A stretch of DNA of 64,000 nucleotides. Source: Promicromonospora sukumoe 327MFSha3.1. Lineage in GTDB: Bacteria > Actinomycetota > Actinomycetes > Actinomycetales > Cellulomonadaceae. The notes under the pieces are model-generated. The model did not search any database and was not told where the DNA came from. It worked only from the letters and a program-made list of their open reading frames with translations. Positions within the stretch are counted from its first letter, which is position 1, and each line of letters opens with the position of its first letter. The translations under genes were made by a program, and so were the position numbers. The stretch lies in NCBI RefSeq assembly GCF_000385135.1, contig NZ_ARQM01000011.1:558001-622000 (forward strand), in the 5' to 3' direction. This document shows positions 58,170 through 64,000 of this stretch, piece after piece.

Positions 58170-58204
58170 AGGCCCGCATCCCGCAAGGGATGCGGGCCTT
58201 TTTG
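58170..58204 (+). terminator. Intrinsic terminator after rplA
   Basis: AGGCCCGCATCCC pairs with GGGATGCGGGCCT around GCAA and is followed directly by a run of T (58199-58203), the classic Rho-independent form. It separates the ribosomal protein unit from the protease cluster. Confidence 0.97.
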
Positions 58205-58225
58205 AATTTTCATCAGGATCATGTA

Positions 58226-58255
58226 TCGAACCGGGTGGTCCCACCTCTTGTCTGA
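58226..58255 (+). promoter_or_regulatory. Candidate ECF-type promoter of the sigma/protease unit
   Basis: TCGAACC (58226-58232) and GTCTGA (58250-58255), with 17 bases between, resemble RpoE-type promoters (GAAC... and TCTGA). It lies about 46 bases before the sigma gene start codon. If real, it suggests the sigma factor transcribes its own unit. Confidence 0.4.
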
Positions 58256-58300
58256 TGGGCGGCAGGAAGCCGACGTGAGCCGAGGAGAGAGGAGTGCCTG

Positions 58301-59053
58301 ATGGGCACTGTTTTCTCCCTCCCCGGATCCGTGTGCTCGGCCGTAGACTCGGTTGGTCCAAGCGCTCCACGTCCGGCACGCGACGTGGAAACATCCGCCA
58401 GCAGAGAATCCCGTGGTGCAATGACAGGATCAAGGGAGGCCCTGCCCGACGTCGACGGGTCCGGTCTCACGCTCGGTGATCGCGCGGCGATCGCCCTGAC
58501 CGAGTACCGCGCCGGAAACCACCAGGCGCTCGGCGACCTGGTGCGCGAGGCGACGCCGCTGCTGTGGCACACGGTCCGCGCGCAAGGGGTCGACCGCGAT
58601 GCCGCGGACGACGTCGTGCAGAGCACCTGGGTCGCGTTGGTACGCCACGCCGAGTCGATCGCCGAGCCGAAGGCCGTGCTGAAGTGGCTGCTGGTCACCG
58701 CGAAGCGCGCTGCCTGGGAGGCGGTGCGCAAGCACCGTGACGACGAGAAGCGCCGTACCGAGCTGCCGGACGACAGCCCTGAGCATCCGATGGCTCTCCC
58801 CGCGAACGACCCGCCCCCGGACGCCGAGGTGCTGCGCGACGAGCGCGACCGCATCCTCTGGACGTCCCTCCAGAAACTTCCCGGACGCTGCCAGGAGCTG
58901 CTGCGTCTGGTGTCGCTCGCCGACCGGCCGGACTACCGGTACATCTCGGCGGCGATCGGAATGCCGATGGGTTCCATCGGTTCGACTCGTGGCCGCTGCT
59001 TGGCGAAGCTGCGCACCATCCTCGATGAGCAAGGGGACTTCTCGTGGACCTGA
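58301..59053 (+). CDS. ECF-type RNA polymerase sigma factor of the protease cluster
   Basis: This is a 250-residue sigma-70-like factor. Sigma-2 covers about 60-135 (DLVREATPLLWHTVRAQGVDRDAADDVVQSTWVALV), and sigma-4 about 185-245 (LQKLPGRCQELLRLVSLADRPDYRYISAAIGMPMGSIGSTRGRCLAKL). ATG 58301 has GAGAGGAG 7 bases upstream; ATG 58421 would trim a non-conserved N-terminal tail and is the alternative. It overlaps the next gene by 10 bases. No zinc-type anti-sigma gene is adjacent, so the downstream small protein is the best candidate partner. Confidence 0.92.
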   Translation: MGTVFSLPGSVCSAVDSVGPSAPRPARDVETSASRESRGAMTGSREALPDVDGSGLTLGDRAAIALTEYRAGNHQALGDLVREATPLLWHTVRAQGVDRDAADDVVQSTWVALVRHAESIAEPKAVLKWLLVTAKRAAWEAVRKHRDDEKRRTELPDDSPEHPMALPANDPPPDAEVLRDERDRILWTSLQKLPGRCQELLRLVSLADRPDYRYISAAIGMPMGSIGSTRGRCLAKLRTILDEQGDFSWT

Positions 59054-59604
59054 CGCCGGAACCCAACCAGGACGACGAGGCCGTGGGGCACCTCTCGTTC
59101 GACCCGAAGGGCGTGCTGGACGCCGAGGACGGCGCCGTGCTGACCCGGCTCGCGCGCGCGGTCGGGGCCGTGGACCCGGTGCCGGAGGGGCTCGTCGAGC
59201 GGTCGCTGTTCGCGATCACGCTGGCGGGTCTCGAGGCCGACATGATGGAGGCCGTCTACCTCGACGCTCCGCTCGCGGGCGTCCGGGGGGCCGCCGCGGC
59301 GGCCCGGGCCGACGACGCCGCGCCCGCCGAGGCGAAGACCATCACCTTCACGCACGACTCGCTGACCGTGATGATCACGCTGTCCCCGTCCGCCGGCGGA
59401 CGGGTCCGGATCGACGGCTGGGCCGCACCCGCGGCCGGGCTGGACGTGGAGCTGCACCGCCCCGGGGTCGACGTCGTCACGACGGCCTCCGACGAGGACG
59501 GCCGGTTCGCCTTCGACTCGGTGGAGCGCGGGCGCGCGAGCCTGGTCGTCCGCCGCACCGACGGCGGTGGCGGCGCCGTGAGCACGCCGATCATCGAGCT
59601 GTGA
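59044..59604 (+). CDS. Small sigma-partner protein with carboxypeptidase-regulatory-like beta sandwich
   Basis: This 186-residue soluble protein starts at GTG 59044 inside the end of the sigma gene. The N-terminal half is helical and contains DPVPEGLVERSLFAITLAG, which in my recollection is common in small proteins beside actinobacterial sigma factors of this type. The C-terminal half (about 95-186) looks like a transthyretin/carboxypeptidase regulatory-like sandwich (GLDVELHRPGVDVVTTASDEDGRFAFDSV). No zinc or catalytic motif. Binding of the sigma factor, as a non-classical anti-sigma, or of the proteases is inference. Confidence 0.82.
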   Translation: MDLTPEPNQDDEAVGHLSFDPKGVLDAEDGAVLTRLARAVGAVDPVPEGLVERSLFAITLAGLEADMMEAVYLDAPLAGVRGAAAAARADDAAPAEAKTITFTHDSLTVMITLSPSAGGRVRIDGWAAPAAGLDVELHRPGVDVVTTASDEDGRFAFDSVERGRASLVVRRTDGGGGAVSTPIIEL

Positions 59605-59607
59605 ACC

Positions 59608-59631
59608 GCTGAACTGCTGAACTGCTGAACT
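59608..59631 (+). repeat. Three perfect 8-base direct repeats
   Basis: GCTGAACT is repeated three times without spacing, four bases after the stop of the small sigma-partner gene and 74 bases before the subtilisin gene. It could be slippage-prone filler or a protein-binding array in the leader of the subtilisin mRNA; nothing else supports either. Confidence 0.75.
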
Positions 59632-59704
59632 ACCGAGTGTTTGATCTGGCCGAGGGGCGCGGCGGGATCTGTCGAGCAATCGTCGTCGATGGAGAGGTAT
59701 TGCT

Positions 59705-61231
59705 GTGAGCGAGCCCATGCCTGAGCCCGAGCTGCGCGTCCGTGACCACGCCGGGGGGTGGCGGCCGGTCCGGGAGGTCGATCCGGAGTCGTACCGGCTC
59801 CCGGGCGGCGGTCGTGTCGCGCCGACCCGATACGTACAGGACCGTGTGATCGTCCGCGGCGACGCCGAGGGCGGCCACAACGCGCTGCTGGACCTGATCA
59901 CCACCCGAGCGCGCGAGCAGGGCATCACGGTGACGACCAGCGACTTCGTCCAGGCGCAGTCCCGCGCGGGCGCAGGCGTGCTCCACGGGCGGCCCGACGT
60001 CGAGGTGCGGCTCGACGACGTGAGGGACGACTGGGACGCGCTGGGGCTCATGGTGGCTGTCGCAGAGGACGCCGGCGAGAGCCGGGCTCGGCTGACGCTG
60101 GACCACGTGATCACCGGACACAAGAACAAGGGCGGGTTCGGCGACCCCGACGAACGCATTCCGGCGGTCTACCCGGGTGCCGCGCCGGTCCGTACCCCAG
60201 ACGGGGCTTCACCGCTCGTGACGGCCGGGGGAGTCGAGCGCCCCGTCGTCGCCGTCCTCGACACCGGGATCGGTGCCCACTCCTGGTTCGACGAGCCCCG
60301 TACCGTGGTGCTGCGCGATGCGCTCCTCGACGGTCAGCCGATCGGTACCTTTCCGGAAGAGGACGTCGACGCCGAACGGGACGGCCGCCGGGACGGCCCC
60401 GCATCGCCTCTCGACACTTTCGCGGGCCACGGCACGTTCATCGCCGGTGTGGTGCACCAGATCTGCCCCGACGCGGCCATCTTGCCCGTTCGCGTGTACG
60501 GCGGTGCGGGAACGGTGTCCGAGTGGGACTTCGCGCGTTCGCTGGAGAGGCTGCTCGAGTTCCATCTGCGAGGCCTCGCTCGCGTTCCGGGCTACTTTCC
60601 CGTCGATGTCGTGGTGATCGCCAGCGGCTACTACCTGGAGCACCCTGAGGACGATGACGACTACGAGGGCATCTATCGTGGGCGGCTCCGTGACCTCCGC
60701 CGAGCCGGTGTCCTCGTGGTGGTTTCTGCGGGCAACGACGGCTCGGCCCGCAAGTCGTTCCCTGCGGGCTGGGCGCCGCCCGTGCGGCGGACCGCTGAGG
60801 GCACCACACCCGTGGACCCGAGCGACCTGACGCCGGGACATACGCCGCTTATCGCTGTCGCAGCATCCAACCCGGACGGTACGCTCGCAGCGTTCAGCAA
60901 CGACGGACCGTGGGTCGCGGCAGTGCGCCCCGGGGTCAACGTGCTGAGCACGATGCCTACGACGTTCGACGGTGCGTTGCGGGGCGAGCGGACTGCGGAC
61001 GGTTTGCGGCACACGATCGATCTGGACGACTTCACGCGTGGGTTCGGCACGTGGAGCGGTACGTCCTTCGCGTCACCGCATCTCGCTGCGCAGCTGGCCG
61101 CGGCGCTGTATGCGCGGCGCAGCGCCGGAGAAGTACCGGCACACGACCCGCAGGGCCGTGTCCGTGATGCCTGGCATGCTGTTGTCGAGGTCGGCGATCT
61201 CTACTCGGAGATGCCTGGAGTGCCAGTCTGA
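59705..61231 (+). CDS. Cytoplasmic S8 (subtilisin-type) serine protease
   Basis: This 508-residue S8 peptidase has all catalytic residues. Asp186 is in AVLDTGIG, His242 in AGHGTFIAGV, the oxyanion Asn344 in SAGNDGS and Ser454 in WSGTSFASPH. There is no signal peptide or membrane helix, so it should act inside the cell. The 180-residue N-terminal region contains a segment (VQDRVIVRGD... , about 40-130) that may be a prodomain or a partner-binding domain. GTG start at 59705. The downstream TPR-CHAT protease gene begins 4 bases after its stop, implying a common job; proteolytic activation of one by the other is inference. Confidence 0.92.
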   Translation: MSEPMPEPELRVRDHAGGWRPVREVDPESYRLPGGGRVAPTRYVQDRVIVRGDAEGGHNALLDLITTRAREQGITVTTSDFVQAQSRAGAGVLHGRPDVEVRLDDVRDDWDALGLMVAVAEDAGESRARLTLDHVITGHKNKGGFGDPDERIPAVYPGAAPVRTPDGASPLVTAGGVERPVVAVLDTGIGAHSWFDEPRTVVLRDALLDGQPIGTFPEEDVDAERDGRRDGPASPLDTFAGHGTFIAGVVHQICPDAAILPVRVYGGAGTVSEWDFARSLERLLEFHLRGLARVPGYFPVDVVVIASGYYLEHPEDDDDYEGIYRGRLRDLRRAGVLVVVSAGNDGSARKSFPAGWAPPVRRTAEGTTPVDPSDLTPGHTPLIAVAASNPDGTLAAFSNDGPWVAAVRPGVNVLSTMPTTFDGALRGERTADGLRHTIDLDDFTRGFGTWSGTSFASPHLAAQLAAALYARRSAGEVPAHDPQGRVRDAWHAVVEVGDLYSEMPGVPV

Positions 61232-61235
61232 TGTC

Positions 61236-63854
61236 GTGAACGGGGAGGTGGGCAGCATCGATCTGGTCGCGCTCACCGAGCGGTTCGAGCGGGCACGCGA
61301 GTGGAACCTTCGTGCGCGCCCGAAGGTGGCCTTCCGTGAGTTCCGGGACCTGCTGGAAGACCTCGGACGGGAGGGCCGGGCAGCCCTCGACGACACAGCA
61401 CTGGAAGAGTGGGTCTGGCTCACCGCGAGGTCCTGGATGGGCCTGGCGCAAGCCGAGTTCGCGCTGTCGGGCGACGCGAGGGCGGCGATCGCCTCGCTCG
61501 ACAACGCTGTTGCCGCGGCGGGCGCCCTCACCGGGTCCGAGCGCGAGCACGTCGAGGCGGTCGCGGCCGGGCAGCGAGGAATGATCCTGCTCCACGCCGG
61601 TCAGATGCGCGAGGCGATCCCGCTCTTCGACAGGGTGCTCGAGGTGAGCCATCACGAGGCGCATCGTGACCGAGCGATGGCTCACCTGAATCGTGGCGTG
61701 GCCTATTCGGACCTCGGCGCCTTCGACCAGGCGCTGGCAGACGACCTGGCCGCTGCTCACCACGCCGAGGCGTCGGACAACCACAGGCTGGTCGCGTTCG
61801 CCCGTCACAACGCCGGATTCGATCTGAGCATGCTCGGGGACCTCCCCGCGGCCCTCGCCGAGATGGCGGCCGCGCGGGAGCTCGCACCGGACCAGGACGA
61901 CGGCATTCCGCTGCAGGGGCGCGCCGAGGTCCTCTACGGGGTCGGGCTGCTCGAGGAGGCGGAAGCCCTCCTGAGCGAGGCGATACCGCAGCTGCTCAAG
62001 GCCGGTCTCCGCACGGACCGCGCCATCGCCGAGTACTTTCGCTCCAGGTGCCTGCTGGCGCTGCGACGCTTCGACGAGGCGGCCGCGCTCGCCGTGCGAG
62101 CCCGGAAGCACTTCCTGGCCGTCGGTTACGAGCAGTGGGCGGCGCTCGCTCGTGTCCTCGAGCTCGAGGCCGCACTCGCACCCGTCCGGAACGACGCGCA
62201 GACGCTGCCCCAGGCCGTCGTCCGGCGCAGAGCGGCGCAGGCGCTCGCCGTCGCCGTCGAGGGTGATGCGGCAGGGCCCGTGCTCGGTCAGCATCCCGGT
62301 CACGCGGCGAGGCTGGTCGCGGCGCAGTGGCTGCTCCTCGCCGGGGACCGGTCCGGGGCGCGGTCAACGCTCGCCGAGCTACCGCGAGGCCTGGTCAACG
62401 CCCCGCTGACGATGCGGATCCAGCACTACACCGCTCGAGCGGAGCTGGCTTTCGCGACCGGGGACCGGGCGACCGGGCTGCGCGCCGTCCGGTCGGGCCT
62501 GGGCCTGCTCGCCGACCACCGTAGCCGCCTCGGGTCCGTCGAGTCCGTCACGGCCGCCGCGGCGCACGGCGTCGACCTGACCCGCGTCGACGTCGTCGCG
62601 GCGGTCCGCACCGGCAGGCCGGCCGCCCTGTTCGACGCCCTGGAGCGCGGTCGCACCACGTTCGCTGGGACCGGCCGCGTCACCCCGCCCGACGACCCGG
62701 AGGCGGCCGCGCTGCTGACCGAGGCACGCGGCCTGCTGGCACGGGCCCGCGAGCTCGGCGCGGGCTACTCCAAGGAGCGCGAACGCCTCACCCGTCGCGC
62801 GAGCCGCATCCAGGACGAAGTGCGGGAACGCTCCTGGCGGCACGCCGGCAACGCCGGCGCCGCGCAGCGCCCGGTCACCGCCCGCGAGGTGCGCGGCGTC
62901 CTCGCCGGGACGCGCAAGGAGACCGTCGTGGCCAACTTCGTCGCGATGGACGGCATGCTCCGCTGCGTCCGCGTAGACGCCGCCGGCGTCACCACCGTCG
63001 ACATCGGCTCCGCCGACGAGGTCATCGAGCACGTCCGCCGCCTGAACGCCGACTTCGCGATGGCCGCCAACGACCTGATCCCGGCCCCCTTGCGCGCCGC
63101 GGCGTCTTCCTCGCTGGCCCGCAACCTCAAGGCGCTCGACGCCGTCCTGCTCGCGCCGCTGCGCGCCGACGGCGACCTCTACGTCGTCGGCCGCGAGCCC
63201 CTGCTCAGCGTGCCGTGGGCCGCCCTCCCGTCCCGCGGCGGCCTGCGCACCTCCGTCAACTCGTACGTCGCGCGCGGCCGTGCGCACGCCCGGCCCACCG
63301 GTGAGCACCGGCTGCTCGCCGCCTCCGGCCCCGGCGTCCGCCACGGCGCCGCCGAGGCGCGCGGCGTGGGGGAGCAGTGGCCCGGCGCGACCGTCCTGAC
63401 CGGCAAGGACGCCGTCACCGAGCAGGTCCGCACCGCCCTGGCCACCCACGACGTCGTCCACCTGGCCACCCACGGTCAGCACGACGCCGACAACCCGCTC
63501 TTCGCGAGCATCGAGCTCGCCGACGGCCCGCTGTTCGCCCACGAGCTCGACGGCACGCCGCTGCCCGGCTCGGTCGTGATCCTGTCGTCCTGCGAGGTCG
63601 GAGGTTCCACCCAGGTGCTCGGCGGCGAGCTTCTCGGCCTGACCTCGGTGCTCCTGCGCCTGGGCGCCCGCGCCGTCATCGCCTCGGTCGCCAAGCTCTC
63701 CGACGAGCTCGCCGCACGCGTCATGCCCCGCCTGCACGCCCACCTGCGCGAGACCGACGACCCCGAGGCGGCGCTCGCGGCCGCGCTCCGCGACGTCGCC
63801 GAGCCCGTGCCCCTGGTCTGCTTCAGCTCGGTCGAAGGCCTCGCCGCCGGGTGA
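61236..63854 (+). CDS. TPR-CHAT caspase-like cysteine protease
   Basis: This is an 872-residue protein. The first 450 residues are helical TPR-type repeats (for example REAIPLFDRVLEVSHHEAHRDRAMAHLNRGVAYSDLGAFDQAL-type units). A coiled linker (RGLLARARELGAGYSKERERL) leads to a C-terminal CHAT domain. Its caspase-like dyad is H746 (HLATHGQHD) and C786 (ILSSCEVGG). CHAT domains are peptidases related to caspases and separase that often act in cell death, stress or defence. The start is probably GTG 61236; GTG 61248 is possible, and the long upstream frame overlaps the subtilisin gene and is rejected. Confidence 0.92.
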   Translation: MNGEVGSIDLVALTERFERAREWNLRARPKVAFREFRDLLEDLGREGRAALDDTALEEWVWLTARSWMGLAQAEFALSGDARAAIASLDNAVAAAGALTGSEREHVEAVAAGQRGMILLHAGQMREAIPLFDRVLEVSHHEAHRDRAMAHLNRGVAYSDLGAFDQALADDLAAAHHAEASDNHRLVAFARHNAGFDLSMLGDLPAALAEMAAARELAPDQDDGIPLQGRAEVLYGVGLLEEAEALLSEAIPQLLKAGLRTDRAIAEYFRSRCLLALRRFDEAAALAVRARKHFLAVGYEQWAALARVLELEAALAPVRNDAQTLPQAVVRRRAAQALAVAVEGDAAGPVLGQHPGHAARLVAAQWLLLAGDRSGARSTLAELPRGLVNAPLTMRIQHYTARAELAFATGDRATGLRAVRSGLGLLADHRSRLGSVESVTAAAAHGVDLTRVDVVAAVRTGRPAALFDALERGRTTFAGTGRVTPPDDPEAAALLTEARGLLARARELGAGYSKERERLTRRASRIQDEVRERSWRHAGNAGAAQRPVTAREVRGVLAGTRKETVVANFVAMDGMLRCVRVDAAGVTTVDIGSADEVIEHVRRLNADFAMAANDLIPAPLRAAASSSLARNLKALDAVLLAPLRADGDLYVVGREPLLSVPWAALPSRGGLRTSVNSYVARGRAHARPTGEHRLLAASGPGVRHGAAEARGVGEQWPGATVLTGKDAVTEQVRTALATHDVVHLATHGQHDADNPLFASIELADGPLFAHELDGTPLPGSVVILSSCEVGGSTQVLGGELLGLTSVLLRLGARAVIASVAKLSDELAARVMPRLHAHLRETDDPEAALAAALRDVAEPVPLVCFSSVEGLAAG

Positions 63855-63995
63855 ATTCACGGGCGAGGCCCAATCCTTCACCTGGGCCAACGTCCTGACC
63901 TGCACCGTCGCGGCGCACGATGACAGGCCGCCCCGCGCCCCGCTATCGTTTCCCGCCCGGTGTCCCTCGGGCCACCGCGAGGCAAGGGGACAAGC

Positions 63996-64000
63996 ATGTG
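63996..64000 (+). CDS. Probable start of the next gene (cut by window end)
   Basis: An ATG at 63996 follows AAGGGGA at ribosome-site distance, and TATCGT (about 63943-63948) could be a -10 box 48 bases upstream. Only five bases are visible, so nothing can be said about the product. Confidence 0.3.

Follow-up and report, generated by a model that had tools for sequence, protein, structure and literature searches.

A sigma factor unit with TPR-CHAT proteases in Promicromonospora sukumoe and its hypervariable subtilase and TPR-arm block

The interval between rplA and rplJ in the soil actinobacterium Promicromonospora sukumoe is filled by a unit of forward-strand genes encoding an ECF sigma factor, a small protein, an S8 subtilase (S8) and a TPR-CHAT protease (CHAT1), at 58301-63854 of the window, the 64,000-nucleotide stretch of DNA analysed here (Table 1). 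Within the genus, S8 forms a hypervariable block with the CHAT1 TPR arm (CHAT1-N); the two are inherited together, and their history is discordant with both flanks. Our tentative interpretation, which is quite possible and still short of an even chance, is that the unit is an ECF54-type cytoplasmic, Craspase-like signalling operon in which strains exchange the sensing half.

The initial annotation had described a unit of four genes; all four are present, and the description was right but incomplete, as a second TPR-CHAT gene (CHAT2), 57% identical to CHAT1, starts at the window edge. The overlap of the sigma and small genes (59044-59053) and the 4-base gap between the S8 stop and the CHAT1 start, both described previously, are borne out by the coordinates.

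Table 1. Features of the unit and its borders (window positions)
Feature	Position	Strand	Basis or remark
rplA terminator-like inverted repeat and T run	58170..58204	+	Upstream border of unit; read from sequence
ECF-type promoter-like site TATCGAAC-N17-TGTC, 5′ of sigma gene	58224..58252	+	Exact in 11/13 genus genomes
ECF sigma factor gene, 250 aa (210 aa with start at 58421)	58301..59053	+	TIGR02937, PF04542; start argued from genus alignment
Small protein, 186 aa, proposed sigma inhibitor	59044..59604	+	Weak CarboxypepD_reg-like sandwich; sigma-gene adjacency
S8 subtilase, 508 aa, triad D186/H242/S454, hypervariable within genus	59705..61231	+	PF00082, alignment
Hypervariable exchanged block, S8 and CHAT1 TPR arm	59705..62435	+	End given is about CHAT1 codon 400
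TPR-CHAT protease 1 (CHAT1), 872 aa, H746/C786	61236..63854	+	PF12770, TPR models, alignment
Promoter-like TGACA-N18-TATCGT, 5′ of CHAT2	63921..63949	+	Genus alignment
TPR-CHAT protease 2 (CHAT2) start	63996..64000	+	Runs past window to position 66593 (L003 8594)

Profile searches place three of the proteins clearly. The sigma protein exceeded the cut-offs of the ECF model TIGR02937 (62.5 bits, cut-off 42.9) and of PF04542 (34 bits, cut-off 24), S8 scored 73.5 bits against PF00082 (cut-off 21.8), and CHAT1 scored 87 bits against PF12770 (cut-off 24) and also matched TPR models; a phmmer search for a solved relative of CHAT1 returned none at E up to 0.01. The catalytic residues named in the initial annotation stand at their positions, the subtilase triad being kept in 20/20 aligned S8 proteins and the CHAT dyad in 31/31 aligned CHAT proteins, a count made without the broken or cut CHAT proteins of G010 and G013. 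The suggestion that S8 lacks a signal peptide rests on a hydrophilic N-terminus read by eye. The sigma gene probably starts at 58301: all 13 genus genomes have ATG, GTG or TTG there, with a GGAG motif upstream and a frame free of indels, although substitutions by codon position in the leader (458/358/475) are not clearly coding.

The small protein has a helical-looking N-terminal part followed by a weak CarboxypepD_reg-like sandwich. The sandwich fold proposed earlier is represented by a PF13620 match that stays below threshold (24 bits, cut-off 32.3), and searches of Pfam and NCBIfam-type profiles at E up to 1 gave no match to an anti-sigma family. The sigma gene adjoins the small gene in 13 of 15 other loci in the phylum, whilst S8 (over 200 bits) and CHAT are each found in 7/15, so the sigma factor and small protein form the constant core of the unit.

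Gene order argues that the unit is real, since both order and site are kept in the genus (12/12 other members searched) and the gene set recurs in a distant genus, g31. Matches were present in 59 g31 genomes, 43 of which were inspected, with 41 used for the correlations and 20 for the S8 tree; in all 43 loci examined, which were found through S8, the sigma, small and S8 genes lie together, 41 also have CHAT, and 38 have the exact sigma-small-S8-CHAT order. Random order, the outcome that would have spoken against a functional unit, is ruled out, and with it the idea of chance neighbours. Among farther relatives, S8 precedes the sigma gene in five loci (L040, L046, L064, L066 and L068). A recent mobile island is unlikely within the family, where rplA and rplJ flank the unit in 16/16 other S8-bearing loci with both sides visible; the 17th, in G013, stops at a contig edge and is outside this count. 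Plasmid spread of S8 was likewise set aside, as the single record returned from PLSDB was remote (33% identity) and 11.85 Mb long. S8 is not a constant member, since in two genomes of the family this site holds sigma-small-CHAT and no S8.

The block emerged from a comparison of 13 genus genomes, one per species. Strains whose sigma, small, CHAT2 and RplJ proteins are 90-100% alike have S8 proteins only 55-58% alike, and S8 and CHAT1-N fall into three classes (A, B and C) at odds with the tree of either flank. Deep alleles are thus shared across species against the flank trees, as would be expected of allorecognition or a balanced polymorphism. In AU tests, the block and flank tree sets were each rejected in the other's data (largest p 0.00024), the CHAT1-N tree carrying a long-branch warning. 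S8 distances followed those of CHAT1-N closely (Mantel r=0.97), in contrast to those of the CHAT1 end (0.08), CHAT2 (0.11), sigma (0.13) and small protein (0.06), none of which was significant. In the G012-G004 pair, sigma has a dS of 0.04, whereas S8 reaches about 1.3 and the TPR arm 1.76. The alignments and trees of CHAT1 and CHAT2 and the Mantel test were made without G010 (L024, 453 N), the tree of the upstream flank without G001, and the rplK table without G000, whose stretch begins after rplK. We make no claim that the S8 classes are older than the genus: G014 grouped with class C at 86% SH-aLRT, but a single genus clade was not rejected (p=0.195).

Because S8 and the TPR arm are adjacent, one exchanged stretch would explain their correlation without any contact between the proteins, and the whole unit could be an ordinary stress operon in which the block is a neutral recombination hotspot with divergent homologues, free of selection for diversity. 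The right edge of the block varies by strain pair, from about CHAT1 codon 190 to 660, which fits such a hotspot as well as the model preferred here, and dN/dS is below 1 in all seven pairs computed (highest 0.76), a result that lends no support to positive selection at sites. Against neutrality, at least three strain pairs (G000/G007, G011/G008 and G012/G004) show an exchange that takes in S8 together with the TPR arm, CHAT2 and, in most pairs, the adjoining CHAT1 end track the flanks, and a similar S8 contrast recurs in g31. That genus also speaks in part against our model: of its 27 pairs with sigma at 90% or more, 13 have S8 at 80% or more, and the CHAT end varies too. We consider the neutral explanation quite improbable, and the hypervariable block favours recognition or conflict as the theme of the unit, though it points to no particular trigger, and the stress- or infection-triggered switch of the initial annotation stays a hypothesis. 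The bounded hypervariable block appears to be a new aspect of the unit; no description of it was found in the open-licence literature, among the matches listed.

A theme of conflict raises the further alternative of dedicated abortive infection, in which an infected cell would be killed or stalled by S8 and CHAT, with the sigma factor merely boosting expression. CHAT and S8 proteases are known from conflict systems (PMC10907252, in the parts consulted), and the recognition half is hypervariable. However, the PADLOC matches were weak and confined to single proteins (subtilase 27.9 bits, BovA 21.1, DpdI 13.6), which also sets aside a catalogued anti-phage system, no killing effector was recognised within the unit, and the unit holds one fixed core site within the family rather than a variable island; this alternative seems to us distinctly improbable.

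The pairing of sigma factors with soluble protease neighbours is already in print. In the accessible sections of a review (PMC8999054), ECF54 sigma factors are described with conserved carboxypeptidase, subtilase and CHAT neighbours, and proteolytic control is proposed; the proteolytic cascade suggested in the initial annotation is plausible and had a published precedent. The unit resembles ECF54 in combining an ECF sigma factor with neighbours of these types, a likeness that rests on the neighbour description and not on the ECF54 group model: its subtilase and CHAT proteins score over their cut-offs, and CarboxypepD_reg stays below its own. The ‘carboxypeptidase’ of the published neighbour list is probably, we infer, the non-enzymatic CarboxypepD_reg-like small protein. 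For ECF54, those sections mention neither a second CHAT gene nor a location between rplA and rplJ nor an exchanged block. The published proposal, that the proteases degrade the sigma factor itself and keep its level low until a signal stops them, with the small protein as an adaptor, draws on the same conserved neighbours. The gene overlap and constant pairing of sigma and small protein fit a dedicated sigma partner instead, as does a non-enzymatic reading of the ‘carboxypeptidase’, and we regard degradation of the sigma factor as rather unlikely here.

Two other bacterial systems invite comparison, each as presented in the consulted parts of its source. In type III-E Craspase, the TPR-CHAT protease Csx29 cuts Csx30, which inhibits the ECF-like sigma factor CASP-sigma (PMC10028731), and the circuit that we propose similarly joins a TPR-CHAT protease, a small inhibitor and an ECF-like sigma factor. 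However, CHAT1 scored 16.7 bits against the Csx29 model NF041237 (cut-off 300), Csx30 is larger (565 residues) than the small protein, the unit has an added S8, and no CRISPR part was recognised within it, its read neighbours being ribosomal protein genes. EACC2-caspase systems co-encode a caspase-type peptidase, an ECF sigma factor and a TPR protein, for which proteolytic activation is proposed (PMC8195603), and thus share with the unit the joint encoding of protease, ECF sigma and TPR; in contrast, the portion of that source consulted describes no S8, and neither EACC2 nor DUF1822 matched the unit's four proteins (Pfam, E up to 1).

A dedicated sigma factor, as the initial annotation had it, is plausible, since a putative ECF-like −35/−10 pair precedes the sigma gene, altered in G003 and G008 and exact in the other genus genomes. 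The pair resembles ECF-type promoters in its −35/−10 layout. The pattern had two matches in G000, and 11/13 genus genomes contain a further type of match whose spacer is 16 bases long; these matches lend no support to a single-site regulon, and the 16-base-spacer site, which may yet belong to the sigma factor, is left unassigned. The reversed pattern gave two matches across the 13 genomes. Upstream of CHAT2, TGACA and its spacing are kept in 12/12 aligned genus genomes, with the −10 as TANNGT. The 16-base-spacer site of G000 lies between genes that resemble, by eye, those of a sugar-binding protein and a ROK regulator.

In the Craspase-like model, the small protein, whose frame overlaps the sigma gene, would keep the ECF sigma factor inactive. 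The TPR-CHAT protease, switched on through its TPR arm, would cut the small protein and free the sigma factor to transcribe its own operon from the site at 58224-58252. S8 may be the variable partner of the TPR arm, docking on it or cutting it to render CHAT1 active, or may itself be unleashed by the arm. Together, S8 and the TPR arm would recognise something that changes, possibly a protein from a phage or mobile element, a non-self partner or one another, and strains would therefore exchange the block. This swap would occur by homologous recombination, leaving sigma, small protein, CHAT1 catalytic end and CHAT2 fixed, under selection resembling conflict or allorecognition.

A bolder reading, which we think unlikely, sees in the block a bacterial haplotype for telling self from non-self or for recognising invaders, in which matched S8/TPR-CHAT alleles would be mutually quiet and a mismatched or foreign partner, met through conjugation, phage or a competitor, would unleash the proteases and a sigma-driven programmed response. 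In fungal incompatibility, HET-Q2 of Podospora and a CHAT allele of hetB in Aspergillus fumigatus are, in the excerpts consulted, encoded at loci highly polymorphic between strains (PMC12881547, PMC11138114), and the likeness lies in a subtilisin-like or CHAT protease at a strain-polymorphic locus. The fungal loci, however, are idiomorphic, and HET-Q2 acts on a gasdermin, whereas none of the proteins of the unit matched a gasdermin (Pfam, E up to 1), and bacterial self-recognition is speculation here. If true, the block would give bacteria an equivalent of the incompatibility loci of fungi, assembled from the same pair of protease classes.

Overall, the 13 related genomes represent a natural experiment that splits a variable half of the unit, made up of S8 and the TPR arm, from a half that stays fixed, namely sigma, small protein, CHAT catalytic end and CHAT2, and this division is a pointer to the interface between sensor and partner. 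Biochemical work can draw on the block classes for ready pairs of matched and mismatched alleles, and the unit links bacterial CHAT signalling with polymorphism of the sort familiar in genes for immunity and incompatibility.

On one strand downstream of the rplA terminator of Promicromonospora sukumoe 327MFSha3.1 (G000) lie genes for an ECF sigma factor, a small protein, an S8 subtilase and a TPR-CHAT protein (CHAT1), the small gene overlapping the sigma gene; a second TPR-CHAT gene (CHAT2) follows, and then rplJ. CHAT1 and CHAT2 were the only CHAT matches in the whole genome at E values up to 0.001. The catalytic residues proposed in the initial annotation (Asp186/His242/Ser454 in S8, H746/C786 in CHAT) were confirmed on checking, and are conserved in 20/20 aligned S8 proteins and 31/31 aligned CHAT proteins. 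The probable start of the sigma gene is 58301, where a start codon, an upstream GGAG motif and an indel-free frame are found in 13/13 genus genomes; the substitution pattern of the leader from this position is not clearly coding. The gene set fits the description of ECF54 in an excerpt of PMC8999054, and the unit is therefore known in kind. The ‘carboxypeptidase’ neighbour of ECF54 is probably the CarboxypepD_reg-like small protein of our unit.

Among G000 and 38 relatives, S8 matches were present in 19/39 genomes: G000, all 12 other members of the genus, 5/12 family members from outside the genus and 1/14 genomes of other families. The order rplA, sigma, small, S8, CHAT, rplJ was the same in 16/16 other family loci with both flanks visible, a count that leaves aside a 17th (G013), which stops at a contig edge. 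Of the seven family members without an S8 match, four have a short rplA-rplJ gap (346-791 bases) lacking the unit, two (G017 and G020) hold natural S8-less forms of it, and for one (G016) the stretch examined contained neither the unit nor rplJ. With the small protein as query, 16/396 genomes of the phylum matched, including G000; a sigma gene of the same type was nearby in 13 of the 15 other loci, S8 above 200 bits in seven and CHAT in seven.

Features and their coordinates (L numbers denote genome stretches)
Feature	Coordinates	Genome	Description
CHAT2 start	last five bases of the window	G000	second TPR-CHAT gene, 3′ of CHAT1
S8-less form of the unit	L155 1357-4926	G020	sigma-small-CHAT between rplA and rplJ
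S8-less form of the unit	L159 3403-7109	G017	sigma-small-CHAT between rplA and rplJ
Second-kind promoter-pattern match	L090 1501-1528 (G000:C10:1780368-1780395)	G000	spacer of 16 bases, ending in CTTGGTGTC; flanked by a divergent gene pair
IS30-type transposase-like frame	L025 4619-6010	G001	
Tandem array	L065 5242-16680	G130	
Subtilase gene	L078 4215-5546	G364	

In G001, rplA and the sigma gene are separated by a frame that by eye resembles an IS30-type transposase. The distant genome G130 carries a tandem array of two small, two CHAT and two S8 genes with one sigma gene. G364 has, near a small-protein match, a subtilase gene whose start resembles a signal peptide; it adjoins a secE-nusG-rplK-rplA-rplJ-rplL-like cluster, a position that is probably coincidental.

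Within the genus, identities are 92-100% for sigma and 84-97% for the small protein (13 genomes each) and 77-96% for CHAT2 (12 genomes). The S8 proteins fall into class A (G000, G009, G010, G001, G002 and G005), class B (G012, G004 and G011) and class C (G008, G007, G006 and G003), with 54-60% identity between classes. G000 and G007, for example, share 99% identity in sigma, 95% in the small protein, 92% in CHAT2 and 98% in RplJ, versus 56% in S8. As the S8 of G014, from another genus, is 51% identical to that of G000 (sigma 77%), divergence of S8 inside the genus almost equals that between genera. Class B is internally diverse, G012 and G004 sharing 68% in S8 though 98% in sigma. The low-identity stretch begins at the S8 start or in its first part and stops within CHAT1, at around codon 190 for G000/G010, 330-420 for G000/G007, 376-420 for G011/G008 and 600-660 for G012/G004. 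The catalytic end of CHAT1 is alike in the last three, readable, pairs; in G010 an assembly gap breaks it, and a separate piece (residues 689-872) is 98% identical.

The pairs G011/G008 and G012/G004 are each recovered in the trees of the upstream flank, sigma+small, CHAT2 and the downstream flank. Trees built from sigma+small, from CHAT2 and from the CHAT1 C-half join G000 to G007 and G006 (and to G010 where included); both flank trees place it in one clade with G007, G006, G010, G011 and G008. The S8 and CHAT1 N-half trees instead recover classes A, B and C, each with 100 bootstrap and 98-100 SH-aLRT support, the N-half tree carrying a long-branch warning at the join of the classes. In the C-half tree G011/G008 stay paired and G012/G004 split, as predicted from the late right edge of their block. 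AU tests (largest p 0.00024, for groups chosen after the distance matrix was known and not from prior hypotheses) rejected classes A and C on sigma+small (dlnL 129.5 and 138.0) and CHAT1-C data (74.8 and 67.0). They likewise rejected G011/G008 on S8 (311.1) and CHAT1-N data (260.4), together with G000/G010/G007/G006 on the former (515.1) and G000/G007/G006 on the latter (331.6). In Mantel tests of 12 genomes, S8 distances correlated with those of CHAT1-N (r=0.97, p 0.0005) and CHAT1 331-600 (r=0.43, p 0.0015); values for CHAT1 601-865, CHAT2, sigma and small were 0.08, 0.11, 0.13 and 0.06 (p 0.14-0.26).

Between G012 and G004, dS is 0.04 for sigma, 0.13 for small and 0.19 for CHAT2, versus about 1.3 for S8, 1.76 for the TPR arm (values above 1 being near saturation) and 0.69 for CHAT1 391-865. 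Because synonymous divergence is also raised in the block, we infer that it is old and imported, acquired by exchange and not by fast evolution only. In seven pairs dN/dS was below 1 in every segment (highest 0.76, S8 28-170, G000-G007), and there is therefore no evidence here for positive selection at sites. No description of the exchanged S8+TPR block was found among the matches listed in the open-licence literature searched.

A similar, not identical, pattern is seen in the genus g31, which belongs to the same order but to a different family. S8 is present in 59/119 of its genomes, and the loci of 43 of these 59 were examined. Sigma, small and S8 lie side by side on one strand in 43/43 loci and CHAT accompanies them in 41; the loci were picked through S8, whose count thus holds by construction, unlike those of sigma, small and CHAT. 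The exact order sigma-small-S8-CHAT occurs in 38/43, CHAT is doubled in one and ahead of S8 in two, and two lack CHAT, one of these ending at a contig edge. Across 41 loci, the correlation of S8 identity was 0.86 for CHAT_N, against 0.58 for both sigma and CHAT_C and 0.44 for small (CHAT_N and CHAT_C being the N- and C-terminal parts of CHAT). Identities between G479 and G527 are 96% for sigma, 93% for small, 52% for S8, 45% for CHAT_N and 65% for CHAT_C. Among the 27 pairs, not mutually independent, with sigma at least 90% identical, S8 identity is at most 60% in 13, 69% in one and at least 80% in 13. S8 (69%) and CHAT_N (89%) are decoupled in G536-G540.

Upstream of the sigma gene, 11/13 genus genomes carry TATCGAAC-N17-TGTC (fifth base G or T), with a variable spacer and conserved ends; the site is altered in G003 and G008. 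Its arrangement is that of ECF promoters, and the sigma factor therefore likely autoregulates through it. When the spacer was allowed to span 16 to 20 bases, the pattern matched 26 times in the 13 genomes: at 11 sigma-gene sites, at 11 of a second kind located elsewhere with a 16-base spacer, and at four others. A reversed-pattern control matched twice. Sequence like the second-kind match of G000 was found in 11/13 genus genomes, and could be either the operator of a regulator or a second target of the sigma factor. CHAT2 has its own upstream TGACA-N18-TANNGT, conserved in 12/12 aligned genomes.

Polymorphic loci carrying S8 or CHAT proteases are described, in excerpts of PMC12881547 and PMC11138114, from fungal incompatibility. 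The nearest tested circuit to our unit is Craspase, in which, according to an excerpt of PMC10028731, the TPR-CHAT protease Csx29 cuts Csx30, a binder and inhibitor of an ECF-like sigma factor. Our unit likewise has a sigma factor, a small partner and a TPR-CHAT protein, but no CRISPR component is recognised in it, and at 16.7 of 300 bits on the Csx29 model CHAT1 does not score as a Csx29. By analogy, the small protein would inhibit the sigma factor and CHAT would be a protease acting on the small protein; S8, on the basis of a co-inheritance that linkage alone could yield, would be the changing partner of the CHAT1 TPR arm.
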